This document shows, piece by piece, positions 438 through 7,313 of a stretch of DNA of 8,566 nt (its first letter is position 1; the number at the start of each line of letters is the position of its first letter). The notes below the pieces were generated by a model that made no database searches, had not been told where the DNA came from, and saw nothing but the letters and a program-made list of their open reading frames with translations. Source of the DNA: an uncultured Litorilinea sp. (lineage in GTDB: Bacteria > Chloroflexota > Anaerolineae > Caldilineales > Caldilineaceae); contig CAMPHP010000093.1 in the NCBI GenBank assembly GCA_946885925.1, forward strand, positions 1 through 8,566. The letters run 5' to 3'. The translations under genes were made by a program, and so were the position numbers.

Positions 438-1076
438 ATGAAGACCGGTGAAATGACCATTGCCAACTTTTTAGATGCGTTGGCAGCCAAACAACCAACT
501 CCTGGAGGGGGCGGAGCTGCTGCGCTCACTGGCAGCCAGGCGGCTGCGCTTCTGTGCATGGTGGCAAACTTTACGCTGGGGGCCAAAAAGTATGCAGATG
601 TGCATGAGGAAATGCGCGGCTATTTGGCACAAGCCGAGGCATTGCGGCTTAAGCTATTGGCGCTAGCCGATGAGGACGTGGCGGCTTTTAATGGCGTCTC
701 TGCCTGCTATGCGATGCCCAAGGAGAGCGATAGTGAGAAGGCCGCACGCACAGAAGCATTGCAAGCCGCCCTTAAGGAAGCGGCGCGCGTTCCTTTTGTT
801 GCGGCGGAAGCTGCGCTGGAGGTCATGAAGTTGGTGAGTCCCGTGGCGGCAAAGGGCAATCCTAATGTTGTTAGCGATGCGGCGGTGGCGCTCTATCTTG
901 CCGAGGCCGCGCTGCGTGCTTCAATTGTCAACGTTAATATCAATTTGAAATTCATTAAAGACGAACAATTTGTTAAATCATACACCACTGCCCGCAACGA
1001 TCTGCTCGGCGCTGCTGCGACCGCGTCGATTCGGGGCAAAATGGCCTGCCAGCAGGTTTTGGAGATCGAGCTATGA
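438..1076 (+). CDS. fchA: Methenyl-THF cyclohydrolase / formimino-THF cyclodeaminase family protein
   Basis: The product is a 212-residue cytosolic protein of the FTCD C-terminal/FchA family, about the usual length for stand-alone members. Family enzymes convert 5,10-methenyl-THF to 10-formyl-THF or release ammonia from 5-formimino-THF. Visible landmarks are the N-terminal glycine-rich motif [11 protein letters not shown] (residues 20-30), an all-helical Ala-rich body, the DEDVAAF segment (78-84), [10 protein letters not shown] (140-149), and a C-terminal helix ending in EIEL. I chose the ATG at 438 because it follows GAGGAAAGGGA (424-434). A TTG at 417 in the same frame would place the binding site inside the gene. 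The stop overlaps the folD-like start by 4 nt (ATGA), so the two are translationally coupled. The neighbour appears unable to do the cyclohydrolase step, so I favour methenyl-THF cyclohydrolase as the job here. Cyclodeaminase activity in histidine or purine breakdown is the alternative, but no hut gene is in the window. Confidence 0.88.
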
Positions 1077-1938
1077 CTGCACAACTGCTGGATGGCAATG
1101 CGTTATCAAAGACTCTCAAAGCGCGTATTAAAGAGGAGGCCGAACTCTTTCGTCGTCAATATGGAGTTGCGCCGACATTGGCCGTTGTGCAAATCGGTGA
1201 GGACGATGCCGCTGCGGGTTATGCGCGGGCGATTGGCAAGAATTGCAAGAGCGTGGGCATGGTCTACCAGCCCCATGTGTTGGATGCCTCGGTAAGCCAG
1301 GAGGAAGCCGCTGCCTTGGTGCGCCGCCTGAGTGAGGAGCGCCAGGTTCACGGCGTCATGATTTTGGAACCAGTTCCGGCAGGCTTGCAACTTGATGCGT
1401 TAATTGACTTGATTGACCCGCTCAAAGATGTGGATGGGGTACACCCTGTGAACGCGGGCCGCTTGCTGGCAAATCGCCCGCCCTTTATTGTTCCTGCCAC
1501 CCCAGCCGGTGCTCTTTTGCTGCTGGAACAGGCAGGCGTGGCGTTGCAGGGGAAGAATGCGGTGGTGGTTGGGCGTTCGGACATTGTGGGTAAGCCAATG
1601 GCATTGCTGCTGCTCCATCGCAACTGCACTGTCACCATTGCCCACAGTCGTACTGCCGATTTGCCGGGGCTTTGTCGCTCGGCGGATATTCTTTGTGTAG
1701 CCGTAGGCCGCGCCGAGATGGTGAAAGGAACGTGGATCAAGCCTGGTGCTGTAGGGTAGATTTTGGCACTAATTATACCGATGAAGGCTTGAAGGGAGAT
1801 TGCGAGCAAGCCAGTGTAGCAGAAGTCGCCTCCATGTTGACCCCTGTGCCCGGTGGTACTGGCCCGATGACCAATGCAATGCTGATGGCGAATTTGTTGC
1901 AAGCAGCGAAATTGGCCGTGGGCGACTCCGTGGCCTAA
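1073..1938 (+). pseudogene. folD: FolD-type methylene-THF dehydrogenase, frameshifted; cyclohydrolase residues missing
   Basis: FolD oxidises 5,10-methylene-THF to methenyl-THF with NAD(P)+ and normally also hydrolyses it to 10-formyl-THF. The reading frame from the ATG at 1073 (GGAG at 1061-1064) gives 228 residues and stops at TAG 1757-1759, just after the WIKPGAV motif. The family's remaining C-terminus continues at once in the -1 frame from GTA 1756 to TAA 1938: [10 protein letters not shown], then [15 protein letters not shown]. One extra base, most simply a fourth G in GGG at 1754-1756, restores a 288-residue protein of normal FolD length. The N-terminal catalytic domain keeps Tyr50 and Asp121 (KDVDG), and the Rossmann motif [12 protein letters not shown] and the HSRT segment are intact. 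Position 54, the catalytic Lys in E. coli FolD (YVASK), is Ile (YARAI). Position 98, normally Gln in VQLPLP, is Leu (ILEPVP). Both are tied to the cyclohydrolase half-reaction, so this looks like a dehydrogenase served by the upstream fchA. The shift could be a genuine mutation or a sequencing/assembly error; the clean codons downstream mean any mutation is recent. Confidence 0.85.
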
Positions 1939-1962: not shown

Positions 1963-4215
1963 ATGATCTCTGTTTCTGCTTCGTGCAAAGACCGCGCCAT
2001 GCACCATCCCAAGCTGGGATGGGATCATGGCGCGGTTTTGTTGGCCTATCTGTTGTTGACCCTCGTTATGACCTGGCCCTTGGCTCTCCAGTTCACGACA
2101 GCCATTCCTGGTGACTCGTTTGATGGCTGGCAGAACTATTGGAATCTCTGGTGGGTAAAGCTGGCGTTGGTCGAGCGCAACCAATCTCCCTACACGACCG
2201 ATTTACTTTATTACCCTACGGGCGTCGGTCTCTATTTCCACACGCTCAACCCCTTTAATGGGCTGGTCACGCTGCCTGTGCAACTCGTTGCCGGGTTGAT
2301 CGCAGCCTATAACATGGTGGTATTGATTAGCTGGGTGTTGGCAGGCTATGGCACGTACTTGTTGACGCTGTGGGTGATTGGGTACAGGCCATACAGCCGT
2401 CATTCCGACGAGTCTGCAAGGAGGAATCTCTCTGAGGTATTGGCGGCAGAGAGACCCCTACGGGATGACGGGCGCGAGTCCGTACTGGACGATAGACAAC
2501 GAGCCTGGGCGATCCAGCTAGCGGCGTTTGTCGCGGGTGCGATTTTTACCTTTGCACCCGTGCATATGGCGCATTTGTTGGGTCATATGCAGGTGATGGC
2601 GTTGCAGTGGTTGCCTTTTTATGTGCTAGCACTACTGCGGGGCATGGCGCGTGCGCGCATGGGCAAGCCTTGGCTGCGAGAGGGGCTGCTGGCAGGTCTC
2701 TACCTGACACTAGCAGGGCTTTGTGACTGGTATTTTGTGCTCTACCTCTTTCTCTTGACTGCTGTCGTGATTGGCTGGGGATGGCTGCGCGCTCTATGGC
2801 GGCGCGAGTGGCGCTGGCAAGTGGGGATGGGGACCGTGGGTCCAGCAGCGGTCGGGGGAGTTCTCTTTGCTGTCCTGCTAGCTCCGGTGTTGGTGCCGAT
2901 GGTCTCTGAGGCTGTCCAATACAGCTTTATGGTGCGTCCAGCCAGCGACCTCTATATCCTCAGTGCGACGCTGATGGACTTCTTGATTCCAAACCGGATG
3001 CACACCTTGTTTCGTCCCGACAGCTTTACCTGGTGGGGCAACCAGATTGCACCTGTCAGCGAACGTACCATTGCCGTGGGTTATGCGGCGTTGGGGTTGG
3101 CATTGGTCGCGGTGGCGGCAGTGCGGCGGCGAGCGGCGTTATGGGGGCTGGCTGCTCTCTGCTTTGTATTGCTGGCCCTGGGGCCGCGACCGCACTTGTT
3201 CACCATTACATCGAATGACATTCCTGCTGAGGGAACGCTTGTGCAGGAGTGGTCACTTTATGCTCTGGTCAACCAGCTCGTGCCTTTTATGCGCATCAGC
3301 CGCAGCGTCAGCCGCTTTGCGATTGTGGTGCAGTTGTGTGTGGCAGTGCTGGCAGGGATGGGGTTAGCGTGGTGGCTCAAGCGGTTGCGCCCTTCCGTGG
3401 GCGTGTTGAGCGCAGCAGCGGTTCTCGCTGTGGTGTTGGGCGAATTTTGGGTAGCACCCTATCCGATGAGTCCGCCCGATACGCCTGCCTATTATGCGAC
3501 GCTGGCGCAAGAGCCGGGGAGCGGTGCTGTGCTGAATCTGCCTATGAATTATGACCGTCCTGGTTATTTGCTCTACCAGACGGTACACCACCGCCCATTA
3601 ACAGTGGCCTATATCAGCCGGGATGACCCGCGCACGATGACCGAGCGCGTCCCGCTCTTGCAGCATTGGCGGCATCTTGGAGCCGATATTCTGGCTGATG
3701 ACCCGGTGCAGGTCGGCATGACAGTGCTAAATGACTTGGGCGTGGATGTTGTGGTGCTGGATCGCTACAAGATGCCTGGTGGCGAGGAACGGGAATATAC
3801 CGAAGCCCTGGCAAATGCGCTCTTTGCAGGAGTGACAGCTAGCTTTGCTGACGAGCGCATTACTGTCTATGCGGTGACATCGCCCATATCGCCCCAACCC
3901 TATTTGGAACTTGGGCCATTGCATTGGGGGCCACTGGTTGAGGTGGATGATGCGCGCTATCGCACAGTAGGTGATGGCCCTGCCGAGTTGCTTTTGCGTC
4001 ATGTGGCGCACGGTGCCCAAGTGGAGATTGCGTATCAGAGTTCAGCAGATGCCTTGGTCAGCAGTCCGGATGGTAATCGTTGGAAGTTGCCCGCCGCACC
4101 CTCGGGGGCGACGATTACGGTGACATTGCCGCTGGGCGTGGATCGTTTGACCTTTACCGCACCACCTGAGCAGGTGCGGATAAGTCGTTTGGCATTGATC
4201 TTGCCGGGCAATTAG
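1963..4215 (+). CDS. Large polytopic membrane protein, GT-C / YfhO-like glycosyltransferase-type
   Basis: The 750-residue product has a membrane half and a soluble C-terminal half. Hydrophobic segments lie at about 24-42, 101-139, 184-222, 241-275, 294-314, 368-408, 453-471 and 479-495. The first outer loop (48-95) has [12 protein letters not shown] and [10 protein letters not shown]. Acidic residues there, Asp51 and Asp54, are where GT-C enzymes carry their catalytic acid. Residues from about 500 to 750 form a soluble, probably extracytoplasmic domain ([34 protein letters not shown]). The plan matches bacterial GT-C/YfhO-like proteins that use lipid-linked sugars, but the substrate is unknown. 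The ATG at 1963 is 24 nt after the folD-like stop, with only a poorly spaced AGG before it. An ATG at 1999 would give 738 residues and a shorter N-terminus, but lies in the hairpin stem. Residues about 142-178 are an unusually charged loop encoded partly by a palindromic repeat, which looks like an in-frame insertion. Family assignment is moderate; specific function is unassigned. Confidence 0.72.
1988..2039 (+). terminator. Strong hairpin with T-run after folD, overlapping the next gene's start
   Basis: The arms ACCGCGCCATG (1991-2001) and CATGGCGCGGT (2026-2036) are perfect 11-bp inverted repeats, extendable outward to 1988/2039 with one G-T pair. Inside them CCATCCCA and TGGGATGG (2004-2011 and 2015-2022) pair around a 3-nt loop. 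TTTTG follows the right arm. The shape fits a rho-independent terminator of the fchA-folD transcript. It lies inside the 5' end of the membrane-protein ORF and buries that gene's alternative ATG at 1999, so it could instead act as an attenuator or a translation-blocking hairpin. Confidence 0.6.
2397..2471. repeat. 75-bp palindromic repeat inserted in frame in the membrane-protein gene
   Basis: The ends CCGTCATTCCG (2397-2407) and CGGGATGACGG (2461-2471) are inverted repeats, with 10 of 11 positions matching and the odd one a G-T pair. Inside, TCTCTCT (2427-2433) pairs with AGAGAGA (2448-2454). The unit is 75 nt, exactly 25 codons, and has no stop in the gene's frame. It encodes an Arg/Glu/Asp-rich stretch between two hydrophobic segments, where I would expect only a short cytoplasmic loop. 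The outline (CATTCCG, GGAATCTC, GGGATGAC) resembles small palindromic intergenic repeats I recall from other bacterial genomes; that resemblance is from memory and not checked. No clear target duplication is visible. Confidence 0.6.
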
Positions 4216-4225
4216 CGAGGTCGCC

Positions 4226-4257
4226 GCCGGGAACCCTCCGGGTGGCTTCAAGGAAGG
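4226..4257 (+). repeat. Convergent-junction repeat, copy 1 (bulged hairpin)
   Basis: This 32-nt stretch matches 8485-8516 at 28 of 32 positions in the same orientation. It can fold as GCC (4226-4228) with GGC (4244-4246) and ACCC with GGGT around TCC, leaving a GGGA bulge. It fills the 32-nt gap between the two convergent stop codons and provides the last codons and stop of the metallo-hydrolase gene. The outer stem seen in copy 2 is absent here because the left flank differs, and there is no T-run, so terminator function is uncertain. Confidence 0.6.
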
Positions 4258-5168
4258 GAGGCGCTGTTTTGTGCTACCCAAGTGAGCATCATGCGCAGTT
4301 GCTGGGCATGTCCCTCTGTGCGGTTGGCAGGAGAGACATCGTCCCACGCGCCACCTGTTGGTGTGACCGCGGCATAGTCACAACCTACTGCCACAGCCAA
4401 CTCTGCATCGAGGATCTGCGCCGGGTCGAGGCCGCGTGCGAGGGCGGCGCGGCTGGCTGCTTCTAGCGCATCGAAATAGGCACGGTTGTTCCGGATGAGT
4501 TGGGGGCCGATGGTGGGTGGGGCGTGGCAGTACAGCACTGTATTTGCGCTGATGTCGTCCAAGCTCGCCAACGAAGCACGCAAGTCGGGGAGCGTTGTCG
4601 CACCTTCGGCAAAGGGAAAAGGAAGTTCGGCGGCATCCCCAGCGAAAAGAGTGCTGATCTCTGGAATATAAATGGCGACATGATCGGCGGTATGGCCGGG
4701 GGTGTGGAAGAGGTGAAGGGTTAGGTCGCCGCCATCAATGGTGAGCTTGCCTGTATAGGTCAACGTGGGCTTGGTCAAAATTACATCGCCAAAGATAGCG
4801 GGCTGCTCACGCTGGAACTGCTGTAGCAAGAGATGCGTTTCGGGCAGATCGAAGCGGGCAGCACAGGCCGCATGGGCAATGATGGGGGCTGGGCAGGAGG
4901 CATCTAGCCCGGCGAAGAGCTGGTTGCCCCACGCGTGATCCCAGTCAGCGTGGGTGTTGATAACCAGTAGCTGGCGACCAGTTAAGTGGGGCTGGGCAAA
5001 GTCCACCAGGGCTTGCGCCGTAGTGGCGTTGAGCAGAGTATCCACGAGCACGACATAGCGCTGGGTGATGACCACAAAGACATTGACCAAGTCGCCGTTG
5101 GCGGCAATGTGGATCCGGGAGTCCCAGCCTTGATTGGGTAGCCAGGTGACCTGATTGGTATAGGACAT
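4248..5168 (-). CDS. Metallo-beta-lactamase-fold hydrolase
   Basis: The product is a 306-residue soluble protein of the MBL superfamily. The metal-binding motif appears as NTHADWDHAWGN, with His73, Asp77 and His78. The usual middle His of HxHxDH is Asp75, a variant I recall from other MBL members. Further ligands are His159 in HTPGHT (155-160), Asp178 in FAGDA, and His215 in YCHAPPT. The C-terminal 80 residues are helical and carry no second catalytic motif, so nuclease or glyoxalase assignments are not justified; the substrate is unknown. The ATG at 5168 is preferred over one at 5213. It sits 8 nt after the PuuD-like stop with AGAG before it, while the longer version overlaps the upstream gene by 37 nt. 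It is the last gene of the glutamine synthetase-like operon, so a thioester, lactone or amide hydrolysis in the same amine pathway is a fair inference only. Confidence 0.85.
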   Translation of the reverse strand: MSYTNQVTWLPNQGWDSRIHIAANGDLVNVFVVITQRYVVLVDTLLNATTAQALVDFAQPHLTGRQLLVINTHADWDHAWGNQLFAGLDASCPAPIIAHAACAARFDLPETHLLLQQFQREQPAIFGDVILTKPTLTYTGKLTIDGGDLTLHLFHTPGHTADHVAIYIPEISTLFAGDAAELPFPFAEGATTLPDLRASLASLDDISANTVLYCHAPPTIGPQLIRNNRAYFDALEAASRAALARGLDPAQILDAELAVAVGCDYAAVTPTGGAWDDVSPANRTEGHAQQLRMMLTWVAQNSASLP

Positions 5169-5176
5169 AATGCTCT

Positions 5177-5917
5177 CTAGGTGGGGGTGCGCTTCCGTTC
5201 TTGGCGAATGCACTGGACAGCAGCGATAAAGGCGTCAAAGAGTTGCTGCTGGCGAGGATCGCTGGCCGCGCTCATCTCCGGATGCCACTGGACGGCAATG
5301 AGCCAGGGGTGATCGGGGGCTTCGACTGCTTCAATCGTGCCATCGTCAGCCTGAGCCGCAATGGTGAGGCTAGACGCTACCTTGCGGATTGCTTGGTGAT
5401 GCCAAGAGATGCCGTGAATCGGCCCCGATTGGAGCATGGCAGCGAGCTGCGTCTCCGGCAAAATGGTTAGGGTGTGGGCGGTAGGTTCGTCCGGTTCCTG
5501 GCGATGGACAATTGTGCCATCTACTGCATCGGGCAGATGCTCGACCAAGGTTCCACCCAGCGCGACATTCAAGACTTGCAAGCCGCGGCAGATGCAGAGC
5601 GTGGGCGCGCCGCTGGCAGCAACCTTGCGCGCCAGATCAAGCTCGGTTGCGTCTCGTTCGGCGTCGAGCATATAGATGGTAGGATGGCCGGGGCTGTTGT
5701 AGTGGCTGGGGTCGAGATCACCACCGCCGGAGAGGATCAGCCCGTCTAGCACAGCAAGCAGATCGTCCAGCCGCGGCTCGCCGGGTGGAATGAGCACGGG
5801 GATACCACCGGCGCGGCGTACAGCCTCTACATAGACTGCGGGCAGGGTAAATTCGTCTTCATGGTTACGACCGTAGGTGGTGATGCCAATCAATGGCGGA
5901 GTCATTGGTAGAGTCAT
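5177..5917 (-). CDS. puuD: Gamma-glutamyl-GABA hydrolase-like class I glutamine amidotransferase (peptidase C26)
   Basis: This 246-residue cytosolic hydrolase has a class I glutamine amidotransferase domain of the PuuD type, with normal family length. PuuD releases glutamate from gamma-glutamyl-GABA in the putrescine utilisation pathway. The nucleophile is Cys110 in CICRGLQVLNVALGGT. The His and Glu of the triad are His212 and Glu214 in VQWHPE. ISWHHQAI (170-177) and the N-terminal PLIGITTYGR and ILSGGGDLDP motifs are also typical. No synthetase domain is attached, which separates it from GuaA, CarA or PyrG partners. The ATG at 5917 is 1 nt after the glutamine synthetase-like stop (TAA-T-ATG), so it depends on translational coupling; an ATG at 5905 is possible. 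The longer frame back to 6055 only reads through the neighbour's end in another frame. Substrate specificity (gamma-Glu-GABA versus another gamma-glutamyl amide) is inferred from context. Confidence 0.85.
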   Translation of the reverse strand: MTLPMTPPLIGITTYGRNHEDEFTLPAVYVEAVRRAGGIPVLIPPGEPRLDDLLAVLDGLILSGGGDLDPSHYNSPGHPTIYMLDAERDATELDLARKVAASGAPTLCICRGLQVLNVALGGTLVEHLPDAVDGTIVHRQEPDEPTAHTLTILPETQLAAMLQSGPIHGISWHHQAIRKVASSLTIAAQADDGTIEAVEAPDHPWLIAVQWHPEMSAASDPRQQQLFDAFIAAVQCIRQERKRTPT

Positions 5918-5918
5918 A

Positions 5919-7313
5919 TTAGATGCGCTCGAAATAGCGCTTGCGCTCCCAGTCTGTAACGGCCTTGTCATACGCTGCCTGCTCGACCTGAAAGAAGTGG
6001 ACATAATGATCCACGACGGCATCGCTGAGGACGCGGCGGGCAAAGGAACTGGCATTTAGGTTGTCTGTAGCCTCGCGCAAGGTGGCTGGAACATGGGGCA
6101 GATGTTGTGCGGCATAGACATCGCCCGTGAAGATCTCCGGTGGCTCGATCTGGCTAGCAATCCCATCTAACCCAGAGAAAAGCGCGGCGGCAAAGGCTAG
6201 GTATGGATTGCAGTCGGCACCTGGCACGCGCGATTCGATACGCAGGCTTTGATCTTTGCCGACCACACGAAAGCCAGCGGTGCGGTTGTCATAGCTCCAG
6301 GCGATGCGGGTGGGTGCCCATGACCCAGCCTGGTAGCGTTTATATGAGTTGACGGTGGGCGCGTAGAAGGGCATGAACTCTGGCAGATGGTGGAGCCAGC
6401 CGCCTAGAAACCAGCGGAAGGTATCGCTAGTTTGGAGAGGGCCAAAGGCTTTTTCGCCTGCAAAGGCATTGCGCCCATCGTGCCAGAGACTAAGGTGGAT
6501 GTGACAGCTTGACCCGGCTTGGTTGGCGTCTACCTTTGCCATAAAGGTGACGCTGATGCCCATTTGATCTGCCACTTCTTTAAGGCATTGTTTGTAGATG
6601 GTATGGCGGTCGGCCATCGTTAGCGCGTCGGCATAGCGTACATTAAGTTCATGCTGCCCGTGGCCCCATTCGCCTTTTGAATTTTCAACGGGGACACCAG
6701 AACGCTTGAGGTGGCGGCGTACTGCGCCATTAAAGGCTTCCTCGCGCGTGCCTTGCAATGCGTGATAATCTTCGATATACCAGCCTGCCGCTTCCAGCCC
6801 GCTATAGCCCTTCTGCGCGGCATCGCGATAGGAGTCGCGGAAGATATAGTATTCGAGTTCGGATGCGCCTTGTGCCGAATAGCCCAGATAGCTAGCTTGG
6901 TCAAGCGCGCGCCGGAGAATGGAGCGAGGCGCGTACGGGACAAGGCTGTGGCTTTTTTCGTCTTCCACATCACAAAGTACGAGCGCTGTGCGGTCGAGCC
7001 ATGAAGCATGGCGTAGCGTTTTGAGGTCAGGTAGCAGATGGAAATCGCCATAGCCGCGCTCCCAGTTGGCGTATTCATAGCCAGGCACAGGCTCCATCTC
7101 CATATCCACCGTGAGCAGATAATCGCAGCCGTGGGTTCCGTGGTGAATAACATCGCTTAAGAAGTAGTCGGCGTCAAAGCGCTTTCCCATATAGCGACCA
7201 TATAGATCGGTAAAGACGGCTAGAACAGTGTCGATCTCGCCCCCGCGTACAAACTTGGTTAATTGCTCTACCGTCAACATACCAGGCGTCAACGTGCTGG
7301 CTGTCTGGATCAT
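5919..7313 (-). CDS. Glutamine synthetase family protein, gamma-glutamylpolyamine synthetase (PuuA)-like
   Basis: The 464-residue product covers the whole glutamine synthetase fold: N-terminal beta-grasp (about 15-110) and C-terminal catalytic domain (about 125-464). Active-site residues are in place: Glu152 and Glu154 in SELEYY, Glu210 and Glu215 in PVENSKGEWGHGQHE with Glu222, His271 in SCHIHL, Arg326 in NSYKR, Arg344 in DNRTAGFR, and Glu360 and Arg362 in IESR. The EWGHGQHE spacing and the NSYKRYQAGSWAPTRIAW segment match PuuA/GlnA3-like members better than assimilatory GlnA. I see no adenylylation-loop tyrosine motif of classical GSI. Such enzymes ligate glutamate to an amine with ATP rather than to ammonia. 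Directly downstream sits a PuuD-like hydrolase that would cleave the gamma-glutamyl bond later, which supports amine catabolism. The ATG at 7313 opens the operon; its leader would be only about 12 nt. An assimilatory role cannot be excluded from sequence alone. Confidence 0.88.
   Translation of the reverse strand: MIQTASTLTPGMLTVEQLTKFVRGGEIDTVLAVFTDLYGRYMGKRFDADYFLSDVIHHGTHGCDYLLTVDMEMEPVPGYEYANWERGYGDFHLLPDLKTLRHASWLDRTALVLCDVEDEKSHSLVPYAPRSILRRALDQASYLGYSAQGASELEYYIFRDSYRDAAQKGYSGLEAAGWYIEDYHALQGTREEAFNGAVRRHLKRSGVPVENSKGEWGHGQHELNVRYADALTMADRHTIYKQCLKEVADQMGISVTFMAKVDANQAGSSCHIHLSLWHDGRNAFAGEKAFGPLQTSDTFRWFLGGWLHHLPEFMPFYAPTVNSYKRYQAGSWAPTRIAWSYDNRTAGFRVVGKDQSLRIESRVPGADCNPYLAFAAALFSGLDGIASQIEPPEIFTGDVYAAQHLPHVPATLREATDNLNASSFARRVLSDAVVDHYVHFFQVEQAAYDKAVTDWERKRYFERI

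Follow-up and report, generated by a model that had tools for sequence, protein, structure and literature searches.

The two reactions of bifunctional FolD, dehydrogenase and cyclohydrolase, are placed on two proteins in several described systems. In methylotrophs, they are carried by MtdA and FchA, of which MtdA represents a dehydrogenase family unrelated to FolD. Aluri et al. reportedly found in 2016 that FolD of Clostridium perfringens has little or no cyclohydrolase activity and works with a separate FchA, and that E. coli FolD can be replaced only by the two together. Yeast Mtd1 (PDB 1edz) is an NAD-dependent eukaryotic enzyme that is not known to be tied to FchA. Furthermore, fhs/fchA/folD clusters with fchA near folD, annotated as cyclohydrolase/dehydrogenase, were described for Acetobacterium woodii (PMC10472528), and fchA lies near folD with the same annotation in Clostridium autoethanogenum (PMC9618320) and T. 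acetatoxydans (PMC3584212). These are Wood-Ljungdahl clusters of anaerobes, and the passages on them in those papers contain no residue analysis.

Here, we analyzed a stretch of 8,566 nucleotides (the window) from an uncultured Litorilinea sp. of the Chloroflexota. Its plus strand carries fchA (438..1076), encoding a stand-alone protein of 212 aa of the methenyl-THF cyclohydrolase/FTCD_C family (PF04961, 219.8 bits), and folD, whose start overlaps the fchA stop by 4 nt (ATGA, 1073..1076, plus strand). The first part of folD (1073..1759, plus strand; 228 aa) spans the catalytic domain and the greater part of the NAD(P) domain, scoring above the curated cut-offs of both PF00763 (97.3 bits) and PF02882 (131.8 bits). 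The C-terminal part (1757..1938, plus strand) lies in another reading frame behind a frameshift near 1757, as indicated by PF02882 and a homolog, P0001. On the same strand, codon 54 (ATT, 1232..1234) places Ile where bifunctional FolD has its catalytic Lys, and codon 98 (TTG, 1364..1366) places Leu where it has Gln. Tyr50 (TAT, 1220..1222, plus strand) and Asp121 (GAT, 1433..1435, plus strand), both of which serve in folate binding, are kept, as is the NADP-binding Arg/His/Ser set of bifunctional FolD. The initial annotation had named the four residues and the overlap, all of which the codons confirm; it had overlooked the frameshift, and its description of the genes as "fused by overlap" goes too far, since they overlap only. 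Of 142 fchA–folD pairs scored, 100 have an A directly after the inferred folD start codon (ATGA, GTGA or TTGA). In a 333-aa record (P0074), part of PF04961 from the closing section of an fchA-like frame continues into a FolD that breaks off early near the PGG motif; we considered it as a real fchA–folD fusion and read it instead as a join of reading frames at a damaged end, probably in a damaged assembly.

Compared with MtdA/FchA, the window pair would likewise have dehydrogenase and cyclohydrolase on two proteins; however, the dehydrogenase is a FolD and not an MtdA. No MtdA-type dehydrogenase domain was found in the two folD frames, for which Pfam returned FolD domains only. Each frame has 30 NCBIfam matches, and the 25 displayed are without exception FolD models named bifunctional. 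Unlike Mtd1, the window FolD is a bacterial, presumably NADP-dependent enzyme next to fchA. With the C. perfringens pair it would share a dehydrogenase-type FolD and a separate FchA, in another phylum. The Bacillota pairs in our sample carry Ala54, Leu54 or Lys54/Glu98, as opposed to Ile54/Leu98 in the window. The split is not a new principle, as acetogen clusters already pair fchA with folD and a dehydrogenase-only clostridial FolD with FchA has reportedly been published. The biology here is a variant of this known split.

The natural variants sit at the very positions, Lys54 and Gln98, that mechanistic studies have addressed. In the passages on E. coli FolD mutants in PMC5688156, cyclohydrolase activity of K54N is undetectable and its dehydrogenase activity amounts to ~19%, and Q98H retains ~8% dehydrogenase and ~1% cyclohydrolase activity. 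According to the same passages, a K54N strain is viable with very slow growth, and methenyl-THF hydrolysis can also run spontaneously (PMC5688156). For human MTHFD1, a passage argues that, in the dehydrogenase reaction, Lys56 contributes more to binding than to catalysis (PMC9173628). The assumption that the dehydrogenase depends less on the Lys and the Gln is thus half right: it fits K54N, but not Q98H with its low dehydrogenase activity. By analogy with these proteins, little or no cyclohydrolase activity is expected of an Ile54/Leu98 enzyme, and we infer that its dehydrogenase function has had to adapt to the residue changes.

Both residues are well conserved among homologs. Within the 120 homologs listed of 7961, residue 54 is Ile in 118 and Leu in 2, and residue 98 is Leu in all. 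In an alignment of 44 homologs, Ile54 and Glu99 are each conserved to at least 90% and Leu98 is invariant, which also applies to the dehydrogenase-site residues Tyr50, Asp121, Arg168-Ser169, Gly173-Pro175, His191-Ser192, and Pro260-Gly262. As positions 54 and 98 and the dehydrogenase site are conserved together, the alignments argue that Ile54/Leu98 FolDs are a stable enzyme class and not a product of decay. A combination of Arg, Ser, and His binds the 2'-phosphate of NADP in FolD, as stated in a passage of PMC3368264; because this set is kept, the window FolD is predicted to depend on NADP.

We then turned to the gene neighbourhood in Chloroflexota. From 568 confirmed genome loci, the 80 best were taken and 50 were traced to whole genomes, 43 of them with a non-Lys54 FolD. 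fchA adjoins this FolD in 36 of the 43 relatives (less than 1.5 kb, same strand, in the fetched locus, where contig ends can hide a neighbour). Six of the other seven carry PF04961 elsewhere, in G029 about 2 kb away, and G041 has none. PF04961 and Fhs (PF01268) were each detected in 42 of the 43 relatives, and since Fhs is missing from G041 as well, incompleteness of this metagenome-assembled genome is suggested. A second FolD was found in only 1 of the 43 (G024; residues of the second copy uncoded). In 10 of the 43 (G017, G019, G023, G025-G029, G031, G032), fhs lies within ~2 kb of folD, which supports FolD, FchA, and Fhs as one pathway unit.

Among 141 Chloroflexota genomes in total, 137 carry FolD and 108 carry PF04961. 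We coded 156 distinct FolD copies from 136 of the 137 (G125 left out), with further copies in G092 (equal score), G118, G179, and G156 left uncoded and residue 54 of one copy (G117) in an alignment gap. fchA was located near 79 of 111 non-Lys54 copies compared to 0 of 45 Lys54 copies (≤3 kb by genome coordinates), which bears out the expectation that non-Lys54 FolDs adjoin fchA more often. At the level of genomes, stand-alone fchA occurs in 88 of 92 with only non-Lys54 FolD and in 4 of 42 with only Lys54 FolD, the latter four by weaker matches (E 3e-37 to 2e-22). The remaining Lys54-only genomes have either only a PF04961 frame of at least 500 aa (13 genomes) or no PF04961 (25 genomes). Exceptions with a non-Lys54 FolD and no stand-alone fchA are G077, G177, and G185 (no PF04961) and G091 (long frame only). 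Gln98 is kept in 68 of 114 fchA-adjacent Chloroflexota copies. The losses of Lys and Gln can therefore not be taken as two independent strokes, as had been proposed; because most fchA-adjacent Chloroflexota FolDs keep Gln98, these sequences suggest that Lys54 was probably lost first and that Gln98 changed to Leu later in the branch of the window.

Some genomes carry more than one kind of FolD. Tandem copies are present in G100 (L104/L138) and G156 (L102/L236), where an Ile54 copy lies beside a Lys54/Gln98 copy and PF04961 is absent, as if the canonical copy did the work of FchA or both copies assembled into a mixed dimer. In Bacillota, a Gln54 FolD neighbours a Lys54/Gln98 copy at L423 (G257), L430 (G216), L433 (G294), and L437 (G325). 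A second FolD-like paralog with Leu/Val54 and Leu98, mostly with an LLPLP motif, lies away from fchA in Chloroflexota that have an fchA-linked FolD (L209, L214, L215, L216, L219, L220, L221, L197, L207, L228, L234, L134, L135).

The comparison was extended to 426 FolD copies from 398 genomes of several phyla. The combination of Lys54 and Gln98 was found in 0 of 170 fchA-adjacent copies compared to 195 of 256 non-adjacent copies (adjacency again as less than 1.5 kb on the same strand in the fetched locus); a canonical FolD beside fchA, which would have spoken against the proposal, was thus looked for and was absent among these 170. The residues that replace Lys54 differ between phyla: Chloroflexota have Ile, Leu or Val, Armatimonadota have Gln, and some Bacillota have Ala. 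In Armatimonadota, Gln54 is present in 16 of 16 fchA-adjacent copies, and PF04961 is absent from 60 of the 63 canonical-only genomes, the other three carrying only frames of 570-596 aa; G355 is an exception, with an Ile54/Phe98 FolD and no stand-alone fchA. Within the Bacillota sample, two apparently separate solutions follow the gene order (L379-L389 and L392 against L393-L398): Ala54 in 14 of 14 adjacent copies of the order fchA–folD, and Lys54/Glu98 in 22 of 25 of the order folD–fchA, with an aliphatic residue 54 in the other 3. Of 299 Pseudomonadota genomes, 14 have a PF04961 match, 13 of them above cut-off, and the one adjacent FolD is Ala54/Phe98. PF04961 is present in every one of the 48 Bacillota genomes for which non-canonical FolD alone was coded (G047-G049 among them). 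The converse fails, as PF04961 is also found in 24 of 49 canonical-only Bacillota genomes, where it perhaps represents cyclodeaminases. Genomes without PF04961 are canonical-only in 25 of 30 cases in Chloroflexota, 60 of 61 in Armatimonadota, and 25 of 25 in Bacillota (G047-G049 set aside). These counts rest on 102 Bacillota and 85 Armatimonadota genomes that were coded in part, some with further uncoded copies, and on a non-random choice of loci in both phyla: around fchA, around top-scoring FolDs, and then by hand, in Armatimonadota mostly low-scoring ones. On balance, we lean towards a rule that holds across phyla: where FolD is coupled to a stand-alone FchA, its cyclohydrolase site is given up, along several routes that differ in chemistry.

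For the window, it is very likely that two proteins share the work that bifunctional FolD does alone, FolD acting only as dehydrogenase and FchA supplying the cyclohydrolase step. FolD would oxidise 5,10-methylene-THF, or make it in the reverse direction, with NADP(H); having an aliphatic residue instead of the catalytic Lys54 and Leu instead of the partner Gln98, it would be unable to hydrolyse methenyl-THF usefully. FchA, encoded just upstream, would interconvert methenyl-THF and 10-formyl-THF, and Fhs, presumably encoded elsewhere in the genome, would link 10-formyl-THF to formate. Together, the three could run the series formate, 10-formyl-THF, methenyl-THF, and methylene-THF either way, and translational coupling on a single mRNA, as the overlap suggests, probably keeps the synthesis of FchA and FolD in step. 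In evolution, FchA may have been present before Lys54 and later Gln98 were lost. Several points weigh against this proposal, besides the small number of state changes on the trees described below: most Bacillota copies of the order folD–fchA (22 of 25) keep Lys54 and differ only at position 98 (Glu); non-canonical FolDs occur without stand-alone fchA in G077, G177, G185, G091, G041, and G355; the presence of fchA does not enforce the loss, as the canonical-only Bacillota demonstrate; and hydrolysis is possible spontaneously, according to the passage cited above (PMC5688156). Overall, the neighbourhood predicted by the initial annotation passed strongly and its functional inference is likely right, whereas the two losses do not count as independent evidence and the lesser dependence of the dehydrogenase on the residues is only half right. 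We found no paper linking loss at FolD positions 54 and 98 to fchA, nor a multi-phylum residue rule, in the open-licence literature, outside of which most subscription papers lie; passages of PMC10696740 contained nothing relevant. If the proposal is true, many FolDs named bifunctional in databases are dehydrogenases only, and a simple rule of two residues plus neighbour gene would predict which, telling the FolD classes apart. One-carbon flux models would then change for Chloroflexota, Armatimonadota, and part of Bacillota, and the pair would illustrate how an active site for two reactions may be divided once a second enzyme is available.

Shared ancestry could produce a similar pattern. A few FolD lineages might have inherited an old fchA–folD operon, with the residue states as founder effects and no functional coupling. 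We calculated trees with columns 54 and 98 removed, using FastTree (422 rows) and IQ-TREE (127 rows), and found at least four and at least five changes, respectively, between canonical and non-canonical states. With so few changes, the number of independent pairs is too low to reach significance and the pattern carries no phylogeny-corrected p value; a plain Fisher test (171 rows, one duplicate included) ignores kinship and was not counted as evidence. However, adjacency changes 21 times on both trees, the residue-54 class changes ten times, and adjacency is never seen with a canonical FolD. Furthermore, four chemically different states are involved (Ile/Leu/Val, Gln or Ala at position 54; Glu at position 98), and the coded genomes without PF04961 are mostly canonical-only. 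We therefore regard such an accident as unlikely, and it would not exclude the two-enzyme proposal. What emerges is a small number of old losses that differ in chemistry and almost always occur in genomes with fchA: a strong pattern and a weak count of independent events.

Alternatively, the window FolD could still hydrolyse methenyl-THF by means of Lys/Arg56 on the same helix or of Glu99, with FchA only adding capacity. A basic residue occupies position 56 in each of the 43 non-Lys54 copies (Lys in 22, Arg in 21), and the high conservation of Glu99 indicates a site that is held by selection and has not decayed. However, E. coli K54N retains Lys56, and its cyclohydrolase is undetectable in the passages on this mutant (PMC5688156). 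Few genomes with such FolDs lack PF04961, and residual hydrolysis of this kind appears quite improbable to us.

The identity of the neighbour was considered as well. Like FchA, the window protein is a stand-alone PF04961 protein of about 210 aa; however, it reaches only 216.3 bits with the NCBIfam FchA model NF045657 (cut-off 275) and is filed as a family member and not certified as an equivalog. Its best solved relative is 7vg4, a methenyltetrahydrofolate cyclohydrolase (E 8.7e-44) that we take to come from a methylotroph. Given family and closest structure, a function as FchA is predicted. The positions Pro22, Gly23-25, Met41, Asp80, and Asp147 are conserved in 169 adjacent loci and present in the window; we rejected them as discriminator between cyclohydrolase and cyclodeaminase, as they are nearly as conserved in 50 non-adjacent loci. 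If the neighbour were a formimino-THF cyclodeaminase of histidine or purine breakdown, methenyl-THF would have to be hydrolysed spontaneously. Cyclodeaminases do belong to the same Pfam family, the FchA model stays below cut-off, and the viability of the very slow K54N strain agrees with a spontaneous step in the passages of PMC5688156. On the other hand, the closest structure is a cyclohydrolase, fchA is tied to folD and fhs can lie close by, and no histidine-degradation gene was found among the window neighbours with a Pfam match. Long FTCD-type frames occur in 13 Lys54-only and 8 non-Lys54 genomes of the Chloroflexota sample, 7 of these 8 also having a stand-alone fchA, and are never adjacent to FolD there. 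A cyclodeaminase is thus very unlikely, and we retain FchA as the putative cyclohydrolase.

With respect to the frameshift, TAG at 1757-1759 closes the folD frame after 228 aa, at which point positions 1-103 of the 160 of the PF02882 profile are covered. The frame at 1672-1938 matches positions 105-158 of 160 (55.7 bits), i.e., the last third, continuing to 1938. Across the frameshift, relatives read GAVVVDFG or similar, whereas the reading frame of the window is shifted by one base. The homolog P0001 (6 member sequences, 3 contigs) has one open frame of 288 aa; it differs from residues 1-227 of the window FolD at residue 89 only, and its last 58 residues equal the second frame of the window. 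As an intact and near-identical homolog exists, the frameshift looks like a sequence error or a very recent mutation, which is the simplest reading. That this one-base shift marks folD as a decaying pseudogene, with the residue changes as part of the decay, is hardly credible, as P0001 is intact, the frame downstream of the shift is fully conserved, and all 120 listed homologs (of 7961) carry Ile/Leu54 and Leu98, so that the same residues are conserved in intact proteins.

Regarding the other genes of the window, a 750-aa protein is encoded directly 3' of folD (1963-4215, plus strand). It has no Pfam or NCBIfam match, and its long hydrophobic stretches suggest a membrane protein. On the minus strand (4248-7313), a run of overlapping genes encodes a glutamine-synthetase-like protein, a peptidase C26 (gamma-glutamyl hydrolase-like), and a protein with a metallo-beta-lactamase fold, all scoring under the NCBIfam cut-offs; we presume that this could be a gamma-glutamylation (Puu-like) catabolic cluster.
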